In this document: in pieces, positions 53,191-64,000 of the stretch | How the letters are laid out: each line of letters begins with the position of its first letter | Position numbering within the stretch: position 1 is the stretch's first letter | NCBI GenBank assembly: GCA_024398845.1 | Contig: JAKSIM010000003.1 | Location: 1-64,000, forward strand | Direction: 5' to 3' | From: Fibrobacter sp. | GTDB taxonomy: Bacteria; Fibrobacterota; Fibrobacteria; Fibrobacterales; Fibrobacteraceae | Length of the DNA stretch: 64,000 bases | Position numbers and translations under genes: made by a program | Notes under the pieces: model-generated | The model's database searches: none | Told to the model about the DNA's origin: nothing | The model's input: the letters and a program-made list of their open reading frames with translations, nothing else

Positions 53191-54372
53191 TTACATGTCG
53201 CCGGTTTTAAAAGGCGCCTTATCACGAATACTTGTCAACGTCAATCCCAAACCAAGGTACAAAACCGCCTGAATGGCGAGAATATACAACTTGGGAGCCA
53301 CATCATACAAATCAGCGCCCATTTGCTCAATGGAAATCCACGCCGGAATAGCGAACGTACTTGGTAAAATATACGAGAGCGCTCTCATGGCATCGGGCAT
53401 TAGGTATGTGGGCCAGCTGAAGTTTGCAAGGAATAGAATCGGAATGGATAGATACAGGAACAACTGCATGCTCGTTTCACGGCGTAAAAACACCTGCGAA
53501 ATCACCATACCAAAATTGATAACCGCAAACAGGAACACAATAGCAAACACCATCATCGGCAAAAGTTCACCGCGACGCGGGAAGTCGAACAGGTTGTAAA
53601 TAACGCAATGGTAGAACAAAATAAAGCAGCAATAATGCAAGAAGTACGCAAGCGAACGACCAAAATAACGGTAAGTCAAGCTTTCATTTTCCACGGCGCT
53701 ATCGCGGTACTTGCGACGGAACCTGCGGTGAGCGCGGGCGCCACCCAAAACGCCAATGCCAATGACCAGCGACTGCTGCAAAATCAAAATGAGTACACTC
53801 GGCACAATGTAATTAGAGTAACTGCCCGTACTGTTGAACATCGTTTGAATGCTTATGGGAATCGGGTCGCGCATGGCCATGGCTTTGCTAGACGGCACCT
53901 TTTTTTCTAGCGCAATCTGGCGCACCTTGGAAGTCGCCCCAAGTGTCATTGCACATGTCGAGAACGCCGTACCAATGGCGCCATGGAGCATCACGTAGGC
54001 TCCATGCGTAAAGATGTTCAGCGAAACCTGTTCATTTTTGCGGATGCTCTTTTCCATATCTTCGGGTATGACCATAAAGCCGTAAATGTCATCACGCGCC
54101 ATGGCGTTTTCGGCTTCGAGCATGTCGTTGTAAACGGCCTTCACTTCTATTTGCTGTGCAGCGGCAGCCATCTGCACCAATTCACGAGATTTTCCGGAAT
54201 GGTCCAAATCAACAATGCCCACGGGAACCTTTGAAACCGTCTGGTAAATGTACGGCGTGGGGTAATAGAACGCATAGAGCAATCCCGCCACCACAAGCAA
54301 AAGCACGGCCGCCGGGTCCGTCACAAACAATTTCCATTCGGTAAGAGTCACCTTGAGAAGACGGTCTAGCAT
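53191..54372 (-). CDS. ABC-2 type transporter permease (second of pair)
   Basis: A 393-residue inner-membrane permease of the YhhJ/ABC-2 kind: one N-terminal helix, a large periplasmic domain (VPVGIVDLDHSGKSRELVQM, VKAVYNDMLEAENAMARDDIYGFMVIPEDM), then five C-terminal helices near 195-385 with the conserved LANFSWPTYLMPDAMRALSYILP. It overlaps the upstream permease by seven bases, so the two are coupled and probably form a heterodimer. No nucleotide-binding subunit is in the operon. Confidence 0.85.
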   Translation of the reverse strand: MLDRLLKVTLTEWKLFVTDPAAVLLLVVAGLLYAFYYPTPYIYQTVSKVPVGIVDLDHSGKSRELVQMAAAAQQIEVKAVYNDMLEAENAMARDDIYGFMVIPEDMEKSIRKNEQVSLNIFTHGAYVMLHGAIGTAFSTCAMTLGATSKVRQIALEKKVPSSKAMAMRDPIPISIQTMFNSTGSYSNYIVPSVLILILQQSLVIGIGVLGGARAHRRFRRKYRDSAVENESLTYRYFGRSLAYFLHYCCFILFYHCVIYNLFDFPRRGELLPMMVFAIVFLFAVINFGMVISQVFLRRETSMQLFLYLSIPILFLANFSWPTYLMPDAMRALSYILPSTFAIPAWISIEQMGADLYDVAPKLYILAIQAVLYLGLGLTLTSIRDKAPFKTGDM

Positions 54373-55538
54373 GACGCCTCCTTTGCGGTTCCTTCAAGTT
54401 TTGACGGTGCAATAATAGATTCAATGCGAACATGTTGTTTCCAGCGCATGCTCATCAAAAGTCCGCCAAACAAGTTCCAAAAAACAGACATGCCTATAAG
54501 CAGTTCAATGGACGGCCAACAATAAGGCATACCCACGTCACCCAAAAGCATGGTCGATTGGACTTTTAAAACGTGCGTCAGCGGAAGCAAAAACGCAAAG
54601 CACCGAACGGCAAAAGGCATGGCCATAAGCGGATAAGTTTGGCCGGCAAACGCAAAAGCCGGGCCACCGACAACGCCCGCAACACCAGTCGCAATACGCA
54701 TGATTCCGGTAACACCAACAAACGTAATGCCAGCCCCAGCGCAAGCAATGACCATAAAGAGTTGCGCCACCGAGACAATGCCAAATTCTTCAAACGTCAT
54801 GGGAGCAAGCACACGATGCGTGTAGGCATAACAGCCCATAAAGCAAAGCCACAATATCACAATCATAGGTACAAAGGTCGCAACCCACAAAGTCAAACGC
54901 GAGCCTTCGGCATACGCAAGGAATTCCTTAACACGATGATCGCGAAGCGGCCGCGATGCCAAATAAACCGCCACAAGGATTGCAGCCAGGTGGAACATGG
55001 CAGCCACAAGACCGAGCGCCAAAAAACCTTGGTAATTGCCTTCTACGTTCCCAACCGAGTGGATTTCTGTTTTTACAGGATTTTGCATTTGGGCGGTAAA
55101 CATATCCTCGCCCACGGCCGTAATTACCGCACGAATTTCCTTGGTGGCAAACATATTTGTCAAATAATTTTGCCCACTAGAATAAATCGGAATGACCGGC
55201 GTTTCTAAGCGCAAGGCACGGCGTTCCAAATCGTACGGGAATACAATGAACGTTTGCAAATCACCGCGAATAACGGCGTGTTCGCACTCGCTCATGTCAT
55301 GGCAAACCAACTGAACATCCAGCACGGGACTCGAACGCAATTTAGTTTCGAGAACTTCGGTCAAGTGGCTATCGTCCTGAAGAACGATTCCAATAGGCAC
55401 ATGCTGCACAATCTGCGACGAGAACATGTCGAGCATGAATACGGAGACGCCTACAGGCAACACCACAAGAATCATCCACAGCACAATGTTGTGGCCGAAA
55501 TAAATTTTGGCAATTGTCTTGAGGAGGCCCTTTAACAC
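54366..55538 (-). CDS. ABC-2 type transporter permease (first of pair)
   Basis: A 390-residue paralogue of the following permease: an N-terminal helix, a periplasmic domain (VPIGIVLQDDSHLTEVLETKL, VQLVCHDMSECEHAVIRGDLQTFIVFP) and a bundle of C-terminal helices with LTHVLKVQSTMLLGDVG. It starts at GTG 55538, 13 bases after the HlyD gene. With TolC and HlyD upstream, the four proteins would make a trans-envelope export channel like YbhFSR or MacAB-type pumps. The ATPase must come from elsewhere, or transport is driven in another way. Confidence 0.85.
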   Translation of the reverse strand: MLKGLLKTIAKIYFGHNIVLWMILVVLPVGVSVFMLDMFSSQIVQHVPIGIVLQDDSHLTEVLETKLRSSPVLDVQLVCHDMSECEHAVIRGDLQTFIVFPYDLERRALRLETPVIPIYSSGQNYLTNMFATKEIRAVITAVGEDMFTAQMQNPVKTEIHSVGNVEGNYQGFLALGLVAAMFHLAAILVAVYLASRPLRDHRVKEFLAYAEGSRLTLWVATFVPMIVILWLCFMGCYAYTHRVLAPMTFEEFGIVSVAQLFMVIACAGAGITFVGVTGIMRIATGVAGVVGGPAFAFAGQTYPLMAMPFAVRCFAFLLPLTHVLKVQSTMLLGDVGMPYCWPSIELLIGMSVFWNLFGGLLMSMRWKQHVRIESIIAPSKLEGTAKEASC

Positions 55539-55551
55539 GGCACAACCCGAA

Positions 55552-56550
55552 CTATTGAATGTTCTCTACCGGGAAAAGAACGCTCATACCCGGGCGCAGG
55601 TTTTCGACCTTGGTCGTCGGACGCATGCGAACCTCAAAAGTCTTGAGGTCAAAGCCACCGCTTTCCTTGCTGCTACGCCAAGTGGCATAGTCACCCACAG
55701 AAGCAATGTAGCTCACTTCCATTTCGACTTCGCGGTCCAGAGCCGGAATCTGGAGCACAAACTTTTTGCCCTTAGAAACATTCTTGAGGTAATCTTCGCG
55801 AAGGTGGAATACAGCCCAGGAATCATCGAGGTCCGTCACGGCAATTACAGGCATACCGGAACCAACGACCTCACCTTCTTCGGCGAGCTTCAACGAAACT
55901 TCACCTGTAATTGGCGTACGAATCTTGGTCTCTTCGAGGTAAGCGTCCACTTCGGCGGAAGCACCGCGAGCCTGCATCACAAGGGCATTCGCCGCGGCCT
56001 TGTCTTCGCTACGGGCGCCGGCAACAGCCTGATTGTATTGCGCCTTGGCAGCATCGGCTGCACTCTGGGTAGCCTTCATTTGCGTTTCGGCTTCGTCGCG
56101 TTTTTGAAGCGGAAGCACGCCTTCGTTAAAAAGCTTTTGAACGCGGTCGTATGTATTCTTGGCAAGATTTGCGGCATCTTGTGCGCGGTCGGCCATAGCC
56201 TTGAGTGCAACGATATCTTCGCTACGGGCGCCGTTACGAGCTTTGTTTGCCTGAGCCTTGGCGGCCCCAAGAGCACCTTGCGCCTGCATCTTCTTCGCTT
56301 CGATTTCTGGACTACTGATAATGGCAATCAAGGAATCCTTAAACACCATATCGCCTTCGTGCACAAACAAACGTTCAATACGACCAGGAACCTTACCCGC
56401 CACAAGCACGCGGCGCGCTTCCATTTGCCCTTGCAAGAACTGTTCGCGGGGAGCCGTCGCAAAGCGCTGCAGCTGAGCAATGCCCAAAATAACAAGTACA
56501 ATCAGTACGAGTATGACAATGACTTTTCCTAGCATTTTTAGAGCGTTCAT
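55552..56550 (-). CDS. HlyD/EmrA-type membrane fusion protein
   Basis: A 332-residue periplasmic adaptor. One N-terminal membrane anchor (MLGKVIVILVLIVLVILGIA), a biotinyl-lipoyl half motif (VLVAGKVPGRIERLFVHEGD), a long alpha hairpin with a duplicated NGARSEDIVAL / AGARSEDKAAA segment, the second lipoyl half (TPITGEVSLKLAEEGEVV) and a beta-barrel region. It links the inner-membrane permease pair to TolC. It starts two bases after the TolC gene stop. Confidence 0.92.
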   Translation of the reverse strand: MNALKMLGKVIVILVLIVLVILGIAQLQRFATAPREQFLQGQMEARRVLVAGKVPGRIERLFVHEGDMVFKDSLIAIISSPEIEAKKMQAQGALGAAKAQANKARNGARSEDIVALKAMADRAQDAANLAKNTYDRVQKLFNEGVLPLQKRDEAETQMKATQSAADAAKAQYNQAVAGARSEDKAAANALVMQARGASAEVDAYLEETKIRTPITGEVSLKLAEEGEVVGSGMPVIAVTDLDDSWAVFHLREDYLKNVSKGKKFVLQIPALDREVEMEVSYIASVGDYATWRSSKESGGFDLKTFEVRMRPTTKVENLRPGMSVLFPVENIQ

Positions 56551-56552
56551 TT

Positions 56553-58220
56553 TTAGTTCTCCGCATCCAATACAGGTGCAACTTCAACTTGAGTTTTTTG
56601 AGTGGAATCAGCAACAGCGGGCTGTACATTTAATGAATCATTCGCCTGCGGAGCAGGTTCCACCGGGCGCTGTTTTGCCTTTAACAAGGAACCCGCATCG
56701 GCCACTTCACCACTTGCTTCCAGCAGACCAAGCCAGGCAATCACCGCATCAAAATGAGCCTTTAAATCGGCAACTTGCAAGCGAGACAAGGCAAGTTCGG
56801 CATCCACAACATCTAGGCCCGTCGCAAGGCCCGCTTCGTAAGCGCGGGTCTGGCTGCGCAATGCTTCGTCGGCCAATTCACGGGTTTTGACAAGACTATT
56901 CAAACGTCCCTTGGCATGTTCCAATTCACGCCAGCGCTTTTCTACAAGCAAGTTAATGTTATCGAGCGTCTGTTCTTCCATGCTCGCCAGAGAGCGGTCC
57001 AAAGCCTTTGCGTTACTTACCTTAGAACGAGTTTCGCCGCCCTTGAACAAATCCCATTGGGCCTTGGCACCCACAGCCCATTCCGGTTCCAAAATGGTTA
57101 AATCTTTAGTATAAAGTTCCTTGTAGCCAAAGAGCGCAACAGTCGGGAAATAATCTGCACGGGCAGCACTTACTGCAGCCTGGCTGCGCTTACGTTCCGT
57201 ACGCAGTTGACGAAGTCCCGGATGTTTTTCTTTGGCAAGTTGCTTGAATTCGTCCATAGAGCGCACAAACTCCGGAGCTTCCACGGGGGTCGTTGCCGAG
57301 AGACTCGTATCGGTATGCAAAAGGCTTGCAAGTGCCATACGGGCAAGCGACTGATCGCGTAGAGCGTCTTCGTAAGCATTCTCGGCTTCGGCCAAAGCAA
57401 CTTCTGCGCGCAGGCGTTCGGCCTTGCTAATCTGGCCACCCGCTTCAAGCTTTTTGGAGCGTTCCAAATGTTCTTCCAAGTTGTGCTTCGTCGTTTCGCG
57501 CATCACCGAAAGTTCTTCGGCCAAACGGAGCGTAAAGTACTTGGTAGCGACATCCATCAAAATGGTATTTTGCGCCATATCGAATTCGGCCTTGCGGGCA
57601 TTCACATTCTCTTTGGCGGCATCATACGCAGAGTAAATCTTGAGGCCAGTAAAGATGGGCCACACCACAGACAATCTGGCATTAAAAAACCAGTCGTCTT
57701 GCACCTTCATGTTAAAGTCGGCGTTGTCAATTTGCGATTTGGCCTTGGACATTTGCTGGGCCGCATCTTTCGCATAGGAATCCGCTTGTTCTTGCGCCAC
57801 ATCCCGCGCCTTGGCGTTTGCCATTTGCGACGCGGTAGCAGCATCAAGCCCCTGTGCCGAAATTTGGCCATAGGCGGCATCGTACGCCTGATTGTAGGCG
57901 TCAATATAAGCCTTTGAATAAGCGGCACCACTCGCGGCAGAGCCCAAGCCCCCCGCAAGTCCACTCATAGCCGATTGGATGGGTTCCAAATTGATATAAA
58001 TGGGGTCATTAATCCTCGTGATCCCTGCACTCAAACTCACTGTCGGCATAAAGCGAGAACGAGCTTCGGTCTGACCGCTTTCGGCCATCTCAACCTTGGC
58101 CTTTTCGGCCTTGATTTGAGAGTTGCTGGATTTCGCCATTTCCAAAGCTTCTTGCAACGAAAGTGGCGTTGCCTGAGCGGCAACACAACCCAAAATAATG
58201 TACGCCAAACACCTTTTCAT
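56553..58220 (-). CDS. TolC family outer-membrane efflux protein
   Basis: A 555-residue outer-membrane channel, first gene of its operon. Signal peptide, then the typical TolC start LSLQEALEMAKSSNSQIKAE, long coiled helices, and repeated patterns (YFTLRLAEELSVMRETTKHN; SQTRAYEAGLATGLDVVDAELAL near 445). An Ala/Gln/Tyr-rich insert near residues 90-150 (AYSKAYIDAYNQAYDAAYGQ) lengthens the first helix pair beyond the usual size. A 40-residue disordered C-terminus follows. Confidence 0.9.
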   Translation of the reverse strand: MKRCLAYIILGCVAAQATPLSLQEALEMAKSSNSQIKAEKAKVEMAESGQTEARSRFMPTVSLSAGITRINDPIYINLEPIQSAMSGLAGGLGSAASGAAYSKAYIDAYNQAYDAAYGQISAQGLDAATASQMANAKARDVAQEQADSYAKDAAQQMSKAKSQIDNADFNMKVQDDWFFNARLSVVWPIFTGLKIYSAYDAAKENVNARKAEFDMAQNTILMDVATKYFTLRLAEELSVMRETTKHNLEEHLERSKKLEAGGQISKAERLRAEVALAEAENAYEDALRDQSLARMALASLLHTDTSLSATTPVEAPEFVRSMDEFKQLAKEKHPGLRQLRTERKRSQAAVSAARADYFPTVALFGYKELYTKDLTILEPEWAVGAKAQWDLFKGGETRSKVSNAKALDRSLASMEEQTLDNINLLVEKRWRELEHAKGRLNSLVKTRELADEALRSQTRAYEAGLATGLDVVDAELALSRLQVADLKAHFDAVIAWLGLLEASGEVADAGSLLKAKQRPVEPAPQANDSLNVQPAVADSTQKTQVEVAPVLDAEN

Positions 58221-58283
58221 AGCCCATCAAAAATAAAAAAAAATGCAATCTAGCGACCACATCAATTTTCGTATAAACACAAA

Positions 58284-58305
58284 AAACCCGACCAACGTCG
58301 GGTTT
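58284..58305 (-). terminator. Intrinsic terminator of the lamin-tail operon
   Basis: AAACCCGAC-CAAC-GTCGGGTTT; on the minus strand six T follow. It ends the DUF4956-to-LTD operon and separates it from the TolC operon. Confidence 0.9.
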
Positions 58306-58325
58306 CTCTAGATAAAATTCAAATT

Positions 58326-59981
58326 TTAGTTACCAAGGGAAGGAGCGGCCTCTTTCCAAGCAGCCTCTTCATAGCCCATGGTCGTTATATCTTCACGGTG
58401 CAAACTAAAGCCATAACCATCTGTCTGCTTAACACTCGGCCAGCAGTCCGAATAGAGCGTTGCGTCATGCCATGTATAGAAGATTTTTTCGTTAGCCATG
58501 TTCAGAGTTTCCACAGCATAAGGTTCCTTAATGGCAATGGTTTCACCGCGGTTAGAAAGTTTACCTTCGTAAAAAGAAACCGGAGTCACAGAAATATCAA
58601 TCTTCAAGCCATTGAGCAATTGTGAAGACACTGCCCTCAGGGAATCCGGCAAAAGAATCATCGTAGATTTCGCTGGAATAACATCCTTAGCATCAAACGT
58701 TTTACCAATACCTTCGATCTTCCAGCCCTTTTTAAGATTTGCATTGAACAAAGTTACCGGAGCATCGGTGTTGTTCACAATTTTCATGAATTCAAAATTA
58801 ATTGGATCACTATCCTTTGGATGATAATGGATTTCGCTAATATAGACAGAACCAATCTTGAACGCAGAGTTTACCGCACCCGGAGTAGGCGTCGTCATTG
58901 GGCCCTGTGCCACAGAACCATCCGCCAAGTCGCGGACACCCGACGAATACTGGCCTGCAGACATCCAGATACTGGATTCCTGACCTTCTGCAGGACCATT
59001 GAGGTAAATTTCACCGCCCTGATCACTTACCACAAGTTCATTATCAAAACTGGTCTTTGCATCAAGAACAAGGTAACCCTTAGCTGGAACCACGCCCGAA
59101 GCAACAGTCAGTTTTTCATCGCGACGCTTAACAAAAACAGTCCAACCGGTCACATCGACATCGGTATCGCCAGAGTTGTAGAGTTCAATCCACGGATCGG
59201 CACCTGCGGCATTCGGCATCACTTCGTTTATACGTACGGTATTAGAAGCTTCAACACATTCGTCGCCACCAACGCCAGGGTTTCCGCCCTTTGTTTTACT
59301 GGCGCACCAAGCCACGGACTGGGCGGCATTGCCTCCCTTAAACACAAGGGAATGGCCCTTGCCATTGGCAAGACTCGGCCAAGGCGGTTCGTTACTAAAG
59401 GCGCAGCTTACGTCGCCTTCACCCGCAATTTTCACGTTGACCACATCGCCTTCGTTAATGAGCTTTCCTTCGGCATCCCACTGGAATACTCGACCCGCAA
59501 AGGACGGATAAGCATTCTTGAATTCAGCGAGGTCGTTCGTCACAACAATGTACTCGCCCTTCTTGAGAGGTTCACTCGGGAAGGTAAAATCAACGGCACC
59601 ACTCAAATGCATATCAAAATCGGTCATGGCGGCCATATCCATACCGCCAGCGATATAGACTTCCACCCATTCCAGGTCAGAATTGTCCGAAGCATTAAAC
59701 ATGATTTCGGAGCAAGCCATTTGCGGAGCATCGGTATCGGTCATCGCAGAACTGTAAATATCACGAGAACTCGATGAAGCCGCTTCAGATTTCGTTCCAG
59801 CATCAGACGTTGCCGAGGTCGCTTCGGAAGTCGGATTCTGTTCTTCTCCCGAAGAAAGAGAAGGATCATCCGAAGGAGTAACGGGATTTTGGTCTTCATT
59901 TTCGCTATCGCCCGAGCAAGCGGCAAATACGCTCAGCATCGAGACGCAGGCACCAGTCAGCAACCATTTTTTCATATTCAT
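58326..59981 (-). CDS. Lipoprotein with three lamin-tail-like domains
   Basis: A 551-residue surface lipoprotein: lipobox FAAC, a 60-residue Ser/Glu linker, then three lamin tail-like (LTD) beta domains at about 85-220 (CSEIMFNASDNSDLEWVEVY), 240-375 (RINEVMPNAAGADPWIELYN) and 380-545 (ISEIHYHPKDSDPINFEFMK). LTD domains are small immunoglobulin-like folds found in bacterial surface and secreted proteins, often with CotH kinase or nuclease domains. No CotH kinase is seen here. It is the last gene of the DUF4956-HlyD-TolC-VTC operon, 41 bases after the VTC gene, with AAGGA before the ATG. Confidence 0.85.
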   Translation of the reverse strand: MNMKKWLLTGACVSMLSVFAACSGDSENEDQNPVTPSDDPSLSSGEEQNPTSEATSATSDAGTKSEAASSSSRDIYSSAMTDTDAPQMACSEIMFNASDNSDLEWVEVYIAGGMDMAAMTDFDMHLSGAVDFTFPSEPLKKGEYIVVTNDLAEFKNAYPSFAGRVFQWDAEGKLINEGDVVNVKIAGEGDVSCAFSNEPPWPSLANGKGHSLVFKGGNAAQSVAWCASKTKGGNPGVGGDECVEASNTVRINEVMPNAAGADPWIELYNSGDTDVDVTGWTVFVKRRDEKLTVASGVVPAKGYLVLDAKTSFDNELVVSDQGGEIYLNGPAEGQESSIWMSAGQYSSGVRDLADGSVAQGPMTTPTPGAVNSAFKIGSVYISEIHYHPKDSDPINFEFMKIVNNTDAPVTLFNANLKKGWKIEGIGKTFDAKDVIPAKSTMILLPDSLRAVSSQLLNGLKIDISVTPVSFYEGKLSNRGETIAIKEPYAVETLNMANEKIFYTWHDATLYSDCWPSVKQTDGYGFSLHREDITTMGYEEAAWKEAAPSLGN

Positions 59982-60022
59982 AAGGATGTCCTTGTTAATG
60001 TCCTAATCCTATATAATAATTT

Positions 60023-60841
60023 TTAGAAGTTTCCGCACAGAGAAGTCCAATAAGGACTCTTGAAACGGCGCGGATTTTCGTAAACGCGTTTCCATTCGGC
60101 AGCGGCATTGCCAAATTTTGAGAAGGCGCCATGCTTCAAATTCAAGGTTTTAATCAAATCAAACATCCAATAAGGCATCTGCGCCGCAGGACATTTGAGT
60201 TCAAGTACAGCATCCATTCCCGGTTGGAAAAACCTCGGAAGGCCCGTAGAATGCATATAATGCGGGTCAACCGTATAGTCAAAACCGTTCTCTTCGCGGA
60301 ACCGCATACCCGTATCAATCGTTACGCGGGAATACTCTTCGCGAAGCCCGAACCAGGCGCGACGCTTGTACTGCGTCAAAAGGCGCGGATGCGCATTGTG
60401 GAGATTCGCCTTGTACAAGAAGTCCTTGAGGTACATGCGGTCCTTATCGCCCTTGCACGGCCATTCGTCGGGTTTCATGTGCCACACTTCACCCGGGTCG
60501 ATTCCCTTGATTGTCGCGCGGCTCTTGTAGCAAATATTGCGAATCTTGCGTTTGCACTCAAAGTGGAACGTACCGTCTTGTGCCGGATGCTCGCCATAGG
60601 TGCGAATGCGCATATTAAAGCGGTCCAAAAGCTGTTTCTTTTTCCAGCCAAGGAACGTCCAAGTGGGCGAATCCAAGTACAAATTAGTTATGTAGTAAAA
60701 GTGTCCCGGAGTAATCTGGGAATAATGGTCTTCTTCGCAGTACGGCTTTAAAAATTCACCAATCCTGTCTGCCCACGCAACAGGAATATGGTACTTCAAT
60801 TCAAACCTTTCGAGAAGGCTAAAACCGCGAGCTTCTGCCAT
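60023..60841 (-). CDS. VTC domain protein (polyphosphate polymerase-like)
   Basis: A 272-residue protein of the CYTH/VTC tunnel fold, with no membrane segment. ERFELKYHIP (basic entry of the fold) at the N-terminus, YYITNLYLDSPTWTFLGWK, the RxR of FNMRIRTYGE, and HFECKRK with alternate Glu/Lys, then AVLELKCPAAQMPYW near residue 215, supply the ring of charged tunnel residues. In yeast Vtc4 this domain makes polyphosphate from ATP. Whether this bacterial member does so is unknown. It stands two bases after the TolC gene. Confidence 0.88.
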   Translation of the reverse strand: MAEARGFSLLERFELKYHIPVAWADRIGEFLKPYCEEDHYSQITPGHFYYITNLYLDSPTWTFLGWKKKQLLDRFNMRIRTYGEHPAQDGTFHFECKRKIRNICYKSRATIKGIDPGEVWHMKPDEWPCKGDKDRMYLKDFLYKANLHNAHPRLLTQYKRRAWFGLREEYSRVTIDTGMRFREENGFDYTVDPHYMHSTGLPRFFQPGMDAVLELKCPAAQMPYWMFDLIKTLNLKHGAFSKFGNAAAEWKRVYENPRRFKSPYWTSLCGNF

Positions 60842-60843
60842 AA

Positions 60844-62223
60844 TTACTTCAAGCCTTCACGAAGATGATTTTGAACGCTCGGATTTGCAAAAACACCCGC
60901 ATAATCAAGCAGCATCAAATAGCGGTCAAAAATATCCGCTTCAAGCTTCACAGCCTTGATGTCACTTTCCAAAGCACTTTCACGCGCACGGAGCAAAAGC
61001 AACGGATCGGAACCCGCACTCTTGGCAAAGTCTTCAAAAATACTTCCGGCGTTCACCTTTTGCACAAATTCCTTTTGCACCTTCCATTGGGCAACAAGAG
61101 CAACAATTTCTTCGCTCAAACGGCCAACTTTCTGGTTCACCTGACGAACGGCATCCAGGTAATCGCTTTCGGCATCCAGCTGGGCCACTTGATTTTTGAC
61201 TGCACTTCCATTGTTGCTATCGAAGAACGGAAGCTTAACAGCCAGATTCACAAAGAACTTATCTGCGGTTTTACGGTTATCAACGTCCGGAACCAAAATG
61301 CTTGCCGTTCCGGTACAGCCAAATACACCAGTGCAACCCGTTTTCTTTTCAAAGTCGTCTTTATAATCGGCATAACTACCAGTACCATAAACATCAGCCG
61401 GTTCCAGCTCCTTGTACTTTTCTAACAAGGATTCAATTTCCATTGAATAACCAATACCAATATGAGAAATGAAATCTCGGTTCTTGGCTAAATCCTGCTT
61501 GGCATTGGCCTGCTCGCTAGCCATTTTACTTTTGGCCTTCATAATTAGCGGAGCATGTTCATCAATGGCGAATCCGCCTCCAAGACTGGTAGAAAGCTCA
61601 TCCATCGTGGGCATAAACGCGCTATCTAAATCAACGCCATCAAAATCCGGCACCCAGGACTTCATCTTGAGTTCAGCGTCACGGAGAGCCGCGCTATCGC
61701 TCATGAGTTCAGCGCGCAAGGCGGATTCCTCTTCGATGGCAGCAATCAGTTCCTGCGTATTGAACGTAGAAGCACCAGCCTTGAGATGCAAGACTTCAAT
61801 ACGGTCCTGGTTCACCTGATAAAGTTGCTGGTTCAACATCGCGAGTTTCTGGCGAATGACATAGCGAATAGCGCGATCATAGCGTTCATAAAGGCCATAC
61901 GAGAGGTCTACCGACAAGCGTGCATTCTGGTAATTCTTTTGAGCCTCGTAGTATTCCTTATCGGCACTTCCCGAGCCAAAAGCCTTTGGCTTTATACGCA
62001 ATTCAAAATCGTGCTTGGCAAAGCTGAAACCATCCAGCTTATAGCGGAATTCAACATTATCCCAAAGTTTAAGCGGACTACTTGAAGATGCCGCCTCAGA
62101 ACGTTTTTGCGAAGCCACAAAAACCGGGTCTGTTTTTACAGATTCGATAAGCTGCTCCCAGGTAAGCGGAGCCGCATACGTAGCCACGGCCATCGAGGCA
62201 ACTATAAAAGCAAAACGATTCAT
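60844..62223 (-). CDS. TolC family outer-membrane protein (second)
   Basis: A 459-residue TolC-like protein: signal peptide (MNRFAFIVASMAVATYA), LTWEQLIESVKTDPVFVASQ, and long helical coiled segments (YYEAQKNYQNARLSVDLSYGLYERYD; VNQKVGRLSEEIVALVAQW). It is much less like standard TolC than the one at 56.5 kb and lacks the tandem symmetry of the latter. Its ATG overlaps the HlyD stop by one base (TAATG), so the tube and the adaptor are coupled. Confidence 0.75.
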   Translation of the reverse strand: MNRFAFIVASMAVATYAAPLTWEQLIESVKTDPVFVASQKRSEAASSSSPLKLWDNVEFRYKLDGFSFAKHDFELRIKPKAFGSGSADKEYYEAQKNYQNARLSVDLSYGLYERYDRAIRYVIRQKLAMLNQQLYQVNQDRIEVLHLKAGASTFNTQELIAAIEEESALRAELMSDSAALRDAELKMKSWVPDFDGVDLDSAFMPTMDELSTSLGGGFAIDEHAPLIMKAKSKMASEQANAKQDLAKNRDFISHIGIGYSMEIESLLEKYKELEPADVYGTGSYADYKDDFEKKTGCTGVFGCTGTASILVPDVDNRKTADKFFVNLAVKLPFFDSNNGSAVKNQVAQLDAESDYLDAVRQVNQKVGRLSEEIVALVAQWKVQKEFVQKVNAGSIFEDFAKSAGSDPLLLLRARESALESDIKAVKLEADIFDRYLMLLDYAGVFANPSVQNHLREGLK

Positions 62224-63332
62224 TACTTACTCTTGTTCTTTTGATTCTTTTTGAGATTCTTGACGCTCGTTTCGGCAATGGAAACCATTTCACCAAGAAG
62301 GAACGGATTTTCTTCGGGAATCTTAATGGTCACTTCACGACCGTAAATGGGCATTTCGGGCATTTTCCACATACGGGTCGGGAACGGAACAATGCGACTC
62401 GAAAGGCCAACCACTTCGCCCACAACGGCCTTGCCCGTACCACTCAAGGTCGTGACCTTCACGGCTTCGCCCAAATTCATGCGCTGGTAAACACGTTCGT
62501 TAATGTAGCCACGAACAAGCGTCGGGGACTTACGAGTAAGGGTCACCACCGGAGTAAAGCTCGAGACCTTTTCACCATCGCGAACGTTCACGTCGCCCAC
62601 GACCCAGTTGTCCTTGCTCACCACGGTCAATTCTTCTTTTTCCTTCTGCAAAGCCTCAAGTTCCTTGCGAAGAGTTTCAGCTTCGCTCTTACCTGCGGAC
62701 TTTTGAAGTCTGCCACTACCACGAAGAAGAGCAATCTGTTCGTTCGCACTCTTTTGCACCAAGGCAAGTTCATTCTTCAAACTCTTGATTTGCATTGCCA
62801 TGGCATCGTTACCATCGCTGCTAGACTTAGAAGAAGAGAGGCTCTTCAACTTGGAAGAAATTTCCTTATTCTTTTTATATTCCGTTTCTAGGCGGTTGAT
62901 TTCAAAACGAAGGCTAGAACTACGAGATGCTGCATCAGCCTTAATCTGAGCAACCTTCTGATCAATTTCCGCTGTACCCAAGCTACTGCGACCTTCAATA
63001 GCATCTAGTTCGCGGTTGAGCTCGGCAAGTCGCATTTCAAGGTCCGGACGATTCAATTCGATGATGGTATCACCCGGTTGAACCTCTTGCCCCGACACCA
63101 CGTGAATCTTCACGATTTCGGTCGCGGCCGGAGCACTGATAATGGTTTCGCTAGCTTCGGCAATGCCCTGGAACATAGCAACCTTACCTTGGTAAACTAC
63201 GCCAAGGACAACGGCAACAACAACGCACAAAAGCCAAGCAAGGGAAAGTTTATGCGTATAAACGTAGGCAACGCCAGCGTTTGACTTGTGGGTATTCCAA
63301 AAATTATTGAGGAGATCTTCAAGCTTGTTCAT
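62223..63332 (-). CDS. HlyD-type membrane fusion protein (second)
   Basis: A 369-residue adaptor with one membrane helix near residue 33 (LSLAWLLCVVVAVVLGVVYQ), a lipoyl half (ISAPAATEIVKIHVVSGQEVQPGD), a long coiled-coil hairpin (EINRLETEYKKNKEISSKLK; AETLRKELEALQKEKEELTV) and a barrel region with a Lys-rich tail. AGGAGATGAAAA precedes the ATG, ten bases after the DUF4956 gene. It probably bridges the DUF4956 membrane protein and the second TolC. Confidence 0.88.
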   Translation of the reverse strand: MNKLEDLLNNFWNTHKSNAGVAYVYTHKLSLAWLLCVVVAVVLGVVYQGKVAMFQGIAEASETIISAPAATEIVKIHVVSGQEVQPGDTIIELNRPDLEMRLAELNRELDAIEGRSSLGTAEIDQKVAQIKADAASRSSSLRFEINRLETEYKKNKEISSKLKSLSSSKSSSDGNDAMAMQIKSLKNELALVQKSANEQIALLRGSGRLQKSAGKSEAETLRKELEALQKEKEELTVVSKDNWVVGDVNVRDGEKVSSFTPVVTLTRKSPTLVRGYINERVYQRMNLGEAVKVTTLSGTGKAVVGEVVGLSSRIVPFPTRMWKMPEMPIYGREVTIKIPEENPFLLGEMVSIAETSVKNLKKNQKNKSK

Positions 63333-63342
63333 TTTTCATCTC

Positions 63343-64000
63343 CTACATTTCTGTGGTGGCATCCTGCATCATAAACTGCACATCCGAGATGCCTTCAATT
63401 TTGGAAAGTTCCGTGAGAATTTCAGCAGCGGGTTTTGTAGCGCGCAAACGAATCTGATAAGCAACATCGAGACGAGCGCCACCATCCACTTCACGCATCG
63501 TAATCAAAATAAATGTTTTGAGGCTACCCTTCATAATGTCTTCGACCTGACCGCGAACCTTGGGTTCGTTCGGGAGTGCAAAGCGAAGCATGCCATCAAA
63601 AAAGTGCTTGGTGCCAAGACCAGTACGGGAAAGAAGGAAGGCCACGCTGCTAAAGGCCATGGTGCCACCAACAGCAGCACCCCAAGCGTACACACCGCAG
63701 CCGATACCTGCGCCCAGAGCCGCAAAAATGAACATAATGTCGCGCGGGTCCTTGAAGCTCGTACGGAAGCGAACCACCGAAAGGGCACCCATCATGCCAA
63801 GGCCACGACCGACGTTATCGCCAATGGCCTGCATCACCATGGCAGCAACCACGGAACTCAGCACAATGCCCTGCACAAAATTTCTAGAATAAGAAAGACC
63901 GAGGAATGTCTTCTCGTAAGTCCAGGCAATAACGGAAGAAAGAATAAATGCCAAAATTAGCGTATAAGCCAACGTAATAATGGTCGCGTTGGCGGTACTG
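63343..64000 (-). CDS. DUF4956 membrane protein, 5' end outside the window
   Basis: The part in the window encodes about 219 residues; the frame stays open to the window edge, so the start is missing. Four membrane helices (LILAFILSSVIAWTY, GIVLSSVVAAMVMQAIG, IMFIFAALGAGIGCGVYAWG, GTMAFSSVAFLLS) with the family motifs GMMGALSVVRFRTSFKDPRDIMF are followed by a soluble alpha/beta C-terminal domain (LITMREVDGGARLDVAYQIRL, ELSKIEGISDVQF) like an ACT/ferredoxin fold. DUF4956 genes are often near VTC genes. It is the first gene of the operon seen here and the likely inner-membrane partner of the HlyD/TolC pair. Confidence 0.85.
   Translation of the reverse strand, partial: STANATIITLAYTLILAFILSSVIAWTYEKTFLGLSYSRNFVQGIVLSSVVAAMVMQAIGDNVGRGLGMMGALSVVRFRTSFKDPRDIMFIFAALGAGIGCGVYAWGAAVGGTMAFSSVAFLLSRTGLGTKHFFDGMLRFALPNEPKVRGQVEDIMKGSLKTFILITMREVDGGARLDVAYQIRLRATKPAAEILTELSKIEGISDVQFMMQDATTEM

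Follow-up and report, generated by a model that had tools for sequence, protein, structure and literature searches.

The five minus-strand genes at the end of the window analysed here (the whole 64,000-nucleotide stretch, G000:C23:1-64000, from a Fibrobacter-type genome that is 83% complete) almost certainly form one functional unit. They encode a DUF4956 membrane protein, a HlyD-family adaptor, a TolC-type outer-membrane tube, an enzyme of the VTC/TTM type and a lipoprotein with lamin-tail domains (LTD), an arrangement far beyond chance, as it recurs across phyla. Whether the unit is a synthesis-coupled secretion machine for polyphosphate, with DUF4956 as the inner-membrane step, is close to an even question, and we place this reading slightly on the doubtful side. 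We infer polyphosphate as the cargo, its export, the activity of the VTC enzyme, the direction of transport and the contacts between the proteins, and likewise the part of the LTD protein as an outer partner in display of the product.

Operon architecture

The operon comprises the following features:

63343..64000, minus strand: DUF4956 gene, type A (227 aa; multi-helix membrane domain and C-terminal ACT domain; MgtC-related)
63739..63771, minus strand: codons of RFRTSFKDPRD, residues 86-96 of DUF4956 (basic loop, candidate polyanion entry)
62223..63332, minus strand: HlyD-family periplasmic adaptor (369 aa)
60844..62223, minus strand: TolC-type outer-membrane tube (459 aa, signal peptide)
60023..60841, minus strand: VTC/TTM enzyme (272 aa, soluble, without membrane helix)
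58326..59981, minus strand: lipoprotein with three LTD domains (551 aa, lipobox cysteine C22)
58281..58308, minus strand: intrinsic terminator-like hairpin behind the LTD gene (12 pairs and a T run)

The window edge truncates the first gene, whose ATG lies 26 bases beyond it (contig position C23:64026). An earlier reading, made from the sequence alone, had described five closely spaced genes with gaps of 10, -1, 2 and 41 bases and a closing terminator, and re-reading of the coordinates and of the hairpin bore this out. An Rfam search of the operon and its leader gave no RNA element. The domain searches which that reading had proposed were run on all five proteins: Pfam matched LTD three times (1.1e-26), VTC (8.3e-29), HlyD_3 (4.5e-10) and DUF4956 (2.4e-11), the OEP/TolC match was weak (0.003, below its cut-off), and CotH was absent from the locus. 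Hydropathy predicts a soluble VTC enzyme, a single membrane helix in HlyD and several in DUF4956; together with the sequence, it gives a signal peptide to the TolC protein and a lipobox to the LTD protein.

A separate minus-strand operon, encoding a TolC, a HlyD and two ABC-2 membrane proteins, occupies window positions 53191-58220 and begins after the terminator. With such an exporter next door (58220-53191), equipped with its own HlyD and TolC, it could be argued that the HlyD-TolC pair of the core belongs to it and keeps company with VTC and DUF4956 by accident. This is very improbable: the terminator separates the two operons, and among the loci compared the ABC-2 operon adjoins the core only in the genus Fibrobacter, the core occurring without it elsewhere. 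The downstream exporter as owner of HlyD-TolC was rejected on these loci across phyla.

A conserved core in diderm bacteria

Among 168 Fibrobacterota genomes, DUF4956 is found in 133 and VTC in 136; 132 have both, 31 have neither, and five are discordant, with DUF4956 alone in G036 and VTC alone in G010, G058, G071 and G149 (all four incomplete MAGs). DUF4956 proteins are of two main kinds, type A (with Pfam scores of about 45-56 bits in Fibrobacteraceae) and type B (130-176 bits). In a tree, type A forms a cohesive group apart from MgtC and from intermediate forms, and type B sits on a very long branch. The order DUF4956-HlyD-TolC-VTC-LTD was observed at every fetched Fibrobacteraceae type-A locus that lies whole on its contig, and also at type-A loci of distant Fibrobacterota classes. 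Type B and a few intermediate forms adjoin VTC without HlyD-TolC.

Beyond Fibrobacterota, a scan of genome contigs with the type-A alignment gave 258 relatives. Of the best 80 of these 258, 67 have HlyD, TolC and VTC together on one strand within 6.5 kb; at the remaining 13 the contig ends inside the locus. All four genes were seen in Desulfobacterota (among them Desulfonema magnum and Desulfoluna limicola, both with complete genomes), Calditrichota, Delongbacteria and Bdellovibrionota. In Planctomycetota, Campylobacterota and Proteobacteria the set is partial and runs into a contig end. The organism labels of MAGs may be wrong. The core gene order is rotated across phyla, yet all four genes are present. 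In the loci compared, no ABC, MFS or RND pump lies between the core genes, and no glycosyltransferase, permease or ATPase is part of the conserved set. The sequence-only reading had staked its hypothesis on a neighbourhood conserved in relatives and on a TolC/HlyD pair not always accompanied by an unrelated permease, and it holds on both points (67/80 loci complete; 132/168 Fibrobacterota genomes). By contrast, its view of the conduit as a local addition has to be given up, since HlyD-TolC is part of the core in several diderm phyla.

The type of conduit tracks the membranes of the host. Gram-positive loci combine CotH, a polyP polymerase and DUF4956 without a HlyD-TolC conduit (PMC7112168, PMC12345266), diderm type-A loci have HlyD-TolC, and diderm type-B loci have a weakly recognised porin-like barrel beside DUF4956; among the loci compared, HlyD-TolC with DUF4956-VTC was seen only in diderms. 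This pattern favours secretion, that is, a product that must leave the cell. The polyphosphate reading is further favoured by the four-gene core across phyla, by the single phylogenetic profile of DUF4956 and VTC, by the Vtc4-type residues of the enzyme and the lack of PPK described below, and by recurring phosphate-related neighbours, namely PhoU-like and PHO4/PiT genes (L096), a Na/Pi cotransporter near DUF4956 (L056) and, as weak matches, porin O/P-like barrels near type B.

Some of these neighbourhoods have features of their own. In L096 (10613-12915), one of the 13 cut loci, from a gammaproteobacterial MAG, type-A DUF4956-HlyD-TolC is followed, in the place of VTC, by a PhoU-like gene (PF01865) and the start of the PHO4/PiT transporter, where the contig ends. 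The L056 cotransporter carries a TIG domain. The porin O/P-like barrel gene (weak Pfam match) lies near type-B or related DUF4956 at L067-L071, L059 and L063, mostly directly adjacent. In Bdellovibrionota, proteins of about 1100 aa adjoin the core (L102:12729-16058, L118:12469-15798, L104:4411-7857, L108:4366-7857), and the two tested had no Pfam match.

The VTC enzyme

The VTC domain scores 101.2 bits against a curated cut-off of 23. A single-sequence search of the PDB gave no match; a profile search matched the yeast Vtc4 structure 3g3q (E=1.5e-7). Sixteen tunnel residues were mapped (R12, E14, K16, R78, R80, E95, K97, K106, R108, R160, R172, D176, E214, K216, S241 and K242), and none of the 16 varies among 89 type-A sequences, a set that includes some duplicates between collections. 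The tunnel residues, whose absence from an alignment the sequence-only reading had named as fatal to its hypothesis, are thus in place. In the profile alignment (8i6v_E numbering), R78/R80 correspond to R264/R266 of Vtc4, E95/K97 to E279/K281, E214/K216 to E426/K428, and K242 to K458. Vtc4 R264, R266 and E426 are residues mutated to inactivate VTC (PMC9911596), and K458 has been termed catalytic (PMC4641920).

Many TTM enzymes hydrolyse triphosphates, and the VTC enzyme could likewise be a hydrolase or transferase acting on triphosphates, not a polymerase. Hydrolytic TTMs carry four glutamates, the acidic patch, at positions that are basic in Vtc4 (PMC4641920). The window enzyme appears basic at three of these four (R12, R108 and K216) and acidic at E14, the register at the N-terminus being in part our own assignment. 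At E14, which in most type-B sequences is D, the enzyme stays acidic where Vtc4 has no acidic residue, so metal site 2 may partly survive. Three of the acidic-patch positions being apparently basic, and the catalytic lysine K242 being shared with Vtc4, the residue pattern favours a polymerase over a hydrolase without proving it, and a hydrolase or transferase appears improbable even with E14 retained.

PPK1 is absent from the source genome and from 77 of the 80 genomes of its genus, and PPK2 from the source genome and the whole genus, as judged from a search of the genome collection in which the source genome is 83% complete; the incompleteness of one genome does not explain a genus-wide absence. 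The VTC enzyme is therefore the only candidate polyphosphate synthase of the source genome. The literature searched yielded neither a demonstration that a bacterial VTC-domain protein makes polyphosphate nor a record of polyphosphate in Fibrobacter, and the main texts of Fibrobacter studies do not mention the operon proteins.

DUF4956, a diverged relative of MgtC

DUF4956 had been described from the sequence as an inner-membrane protein of unknown function. The protein is, however, not featureless: hhalign and a fold model point to an MgtC-like membrane domain and an ACT domain. Pfam names the window protein DUF4956 only, and its NCBIfam MgtC/SapB match covers the full register (E=3.7e-4) with 20.2 of the 214 bits needed. 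A profile of 50 DUF4956 sequences aligned by hhalign with an MgtC profile of 12 at 95.6% (E=1.2e-8, 197 columns). A chance match of the kind that any two membrane profiles might give was rejected, an ABC-2 membrane-protein control reaching 0.2% in the same comparison. On profile comparison we regard DUF4956 as diverged from MgtC and related to the MgtC/SapB family, without assigning it membership. A single protein at L056 (7789-8310) links the two families, as it scores above the Pfam cut-off for DUF4956 and for MgtC alike.

The predicted C-terminal domain has an ACT fold, and a fold search matched the ACT domain only; the model has a pLDDT of 67 overall, which leaves the membrane part at moderate confidence only. 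Searching the PDB with the DUF4956 profile gave only noise. The S. intermedius homologue was also described as MgtC plus ACT in a 2025 paper (PMC12345266), and in B. thetaiotaomicron DUF4956 is paired with DUF2490 (PMC10434189). R86 and R88 are invariant in 50/50 diverse DUF4956 proteins, and the basic RFR...KDPRD loop is a candidate polyanion entry, presumably on the cytosolic side.

The known roles of MgtC are regulatory, not in transport. DUF4956, an MgtC homologue with an ACT domain, could accordingly form with VTC a regulatory pair that responds to phosphate, magnesium or ATP status and gates other HlyD-TolC cargo, such as a polysaccharide or a surface protein. DUF4956 also sits in Gram-positive Pel loci; in S. 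intermedius, deletion of DUF4956 or CotH shifted Pel amount and aggregation, Pel still being made, and no phenotype is reported there for deletion of the polyP polymerase gene (PMC12345266). Such a regulatory pair is nevertheless unlikely, as the conserved set provides no glycosyltransferase, permease or ATPase, and VTC has lost none of its catalytic residues, for which a pure sensor would have no use. For the polyphosphate reading, the resemblance of DUF4956 to a protein known for regulation, the acidic E14, the only moderate confidence of the DUF4956 model, these S. intermedius deletion results and the negative literature results on bacterial VTC proteins and on polyphosphate in Fibrobacter nonetheless count as points against.

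Adaptor and outer-membrane tube

The adaptor matches HlyD_3 at 40.6 bits and combines its one N-terminal membrane helix with lipoyl halves and a long hairpin; its nearest solved relative is EmrA (structures at 2.9e-7). Many relatives have a longer HlyD of 590-750 aa (e.g. L049:8691-10667, L104:8694-10463), whose C-terminal extension gives weak matches to Phytase-like/DUF6929 propellers. For the TolC protein, sequence profiles found no solved relative, but a structure search found one: the AlphaFold2 model (pLDDT 85) has E. coli TolC as its best Foldseek match (E=7.7e-11; crystal structure 1ek9, 2.3e-9), followed by OprM, SilC and CusC. OEP is matched by 16/20 of its homologues. Judged from the model, the gene product has a true TolC fold, though Pfam barely detects it.

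The LTD lipoprotein and CotH

The fifth gene in Fibrobacterota encodes an LTD protein, with a lipobox cysteine in 18/19. Outside Fibrobacterota, the core is adjoined by CotH, usually fused to LTD. CotH or a CotH-LTD fusion lies beside the core at L075, L076, L077, L082, L084, L090, L091 and L093, one or the other lies upstream of DUF4956 in G015, G019, G021, G022, G023 and G034, and CotH accompanies VTC-DUF4956 at L045 and L068. These relatives agree with the statement, in the sequence-only reading, that DUF4956 and VTC share neighbourhoods, often with CotH proteins that may carry LTD. They do not agree with its suggestion that CotH was simply replaced by an LTD protein: many keep CotH or CotH-LTD, and several Chitinispirillia have CotH upstream and LTD downstream of the core. 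The source genome itself has 10 CotH kinase genes, all away from the operon. The genus is not known to form spores.

ATP is absent outside the cytosol, and exported polyphosphate, or a phosphorylated intermediate, could serve there mainly as phosphoryl donor for CotH-type kinases, the LTD protein being substrate or scaffold. The CotH genes beside or upstream of the core in the eight loci and six genomes listed above, and those with VTC-DUF4956 at L045, L068 and in Gram-positive Pel loci (PMC7112168), are consistent with such a role. Fibrobacteraceae operons, however, have no CotH at the locus. B. subtilis CotH works without any VTC, and we know of no kinase that uses exported polyphosphate in this manner. 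A donor role seems a rather unlikely use of the product.

A proposed model of synthesis-coupled export

In the polyphosphate reading, the cytosolic VTC enzyme would polymerise phosphate from ATP, and the growing chain would pass through DUF4956 or be threaded by it, with the ACT domain and basic loop of that protein facing the enzyme. HlyD would connect DUF4956 to TolC, which would lead the chain out of the cell. The LTD lipoprotein, or in relatives the CotH kinase or CotH-LTD fusion, may be the outer partner, receiving, anchoring or using the product. Polymerisation itself would drive transport and make a separate pump unnecessary; the same has been proposed for the yeast VTC complex, in which the chain, as it grows, is translocated past basic residues (PMC9911596). 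A more specific version, in which polymerisation drives export across both diderm membranes through an MgtC-related channel set in a HlyD-TolC conduit and stands in for PPK in most of the genus, is a tentative proposal that we would sooner expect to fail than to hold.

Comparison with known systems

The association of DUF4956, VTC and CotH was already known. No description of its union with HlyD-TolC across phyla was found in the literature searched, which consisted of open-access journal papers. If polyphosphate export were shown, the system would be categorically new. Bacteria would then have an equivalent of the eukaryotic VTC complex and a route dedicated to extracellular polyphosphate; one branch of the MgtC superfamily would gain a function in transport, and a HlyD-TolC tripartite system would be seen to work without a conventional pump. 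The recurrent association of DUF4956, VTC and CotH, and the retention of the operon in Fibrobacter, which mostly lacks PPK, would also gain an explanation open to experiment. Hosts in culture, namely Fibrobacter, Desulfonema magnum and Desulfoluna limicola, put a direct test within reach.

The yeast VTC complex (catalytic TTM of Vtc4 with a Vtc1/Vtc3 channel) is alike in its tunnel residues, its small basic membrane partner and the proposed coupling of synthesis to translocation. The operon differs from it in having no SPX domain, an MgtC-like and not Vtc1-like membrane partner, and an additional adaptor and outer-membrane tube. The Gram-positive Pel accessory genes, cotH-polyP polymerase-DUF4956(-DUF4832), unite DUF4956, VTC and CotH as relatives of the operon do (PMC7112168, PMC12345266), but they belong to single-membrane hosts, have no HlyD-TolC and are linked to Pel, whereas the operon has no Pel genes. 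HlyD-TolC tripartite systems, such as type I secretion and EmrAB-TolC, share the EmrA-like adaptor and the TolC-fold tube; their inner-membrane part is an ABC, MFS or RND pump, here replaced by DUF4956. MgtC/SapB proteins align with DUF4956 over 197 columns, yet the operon protein is genetically paired with VTC and falls below the NCBIfam cut-off. Finally, synthase-dependent secretion of Pel, cellulose or alginate offers a likeness by analogy, in that polymerisation at the inner membrane is coupled to a trans-envelope conduit, but the operon has no glycosyltransferase and its putative polymer is phosphate.
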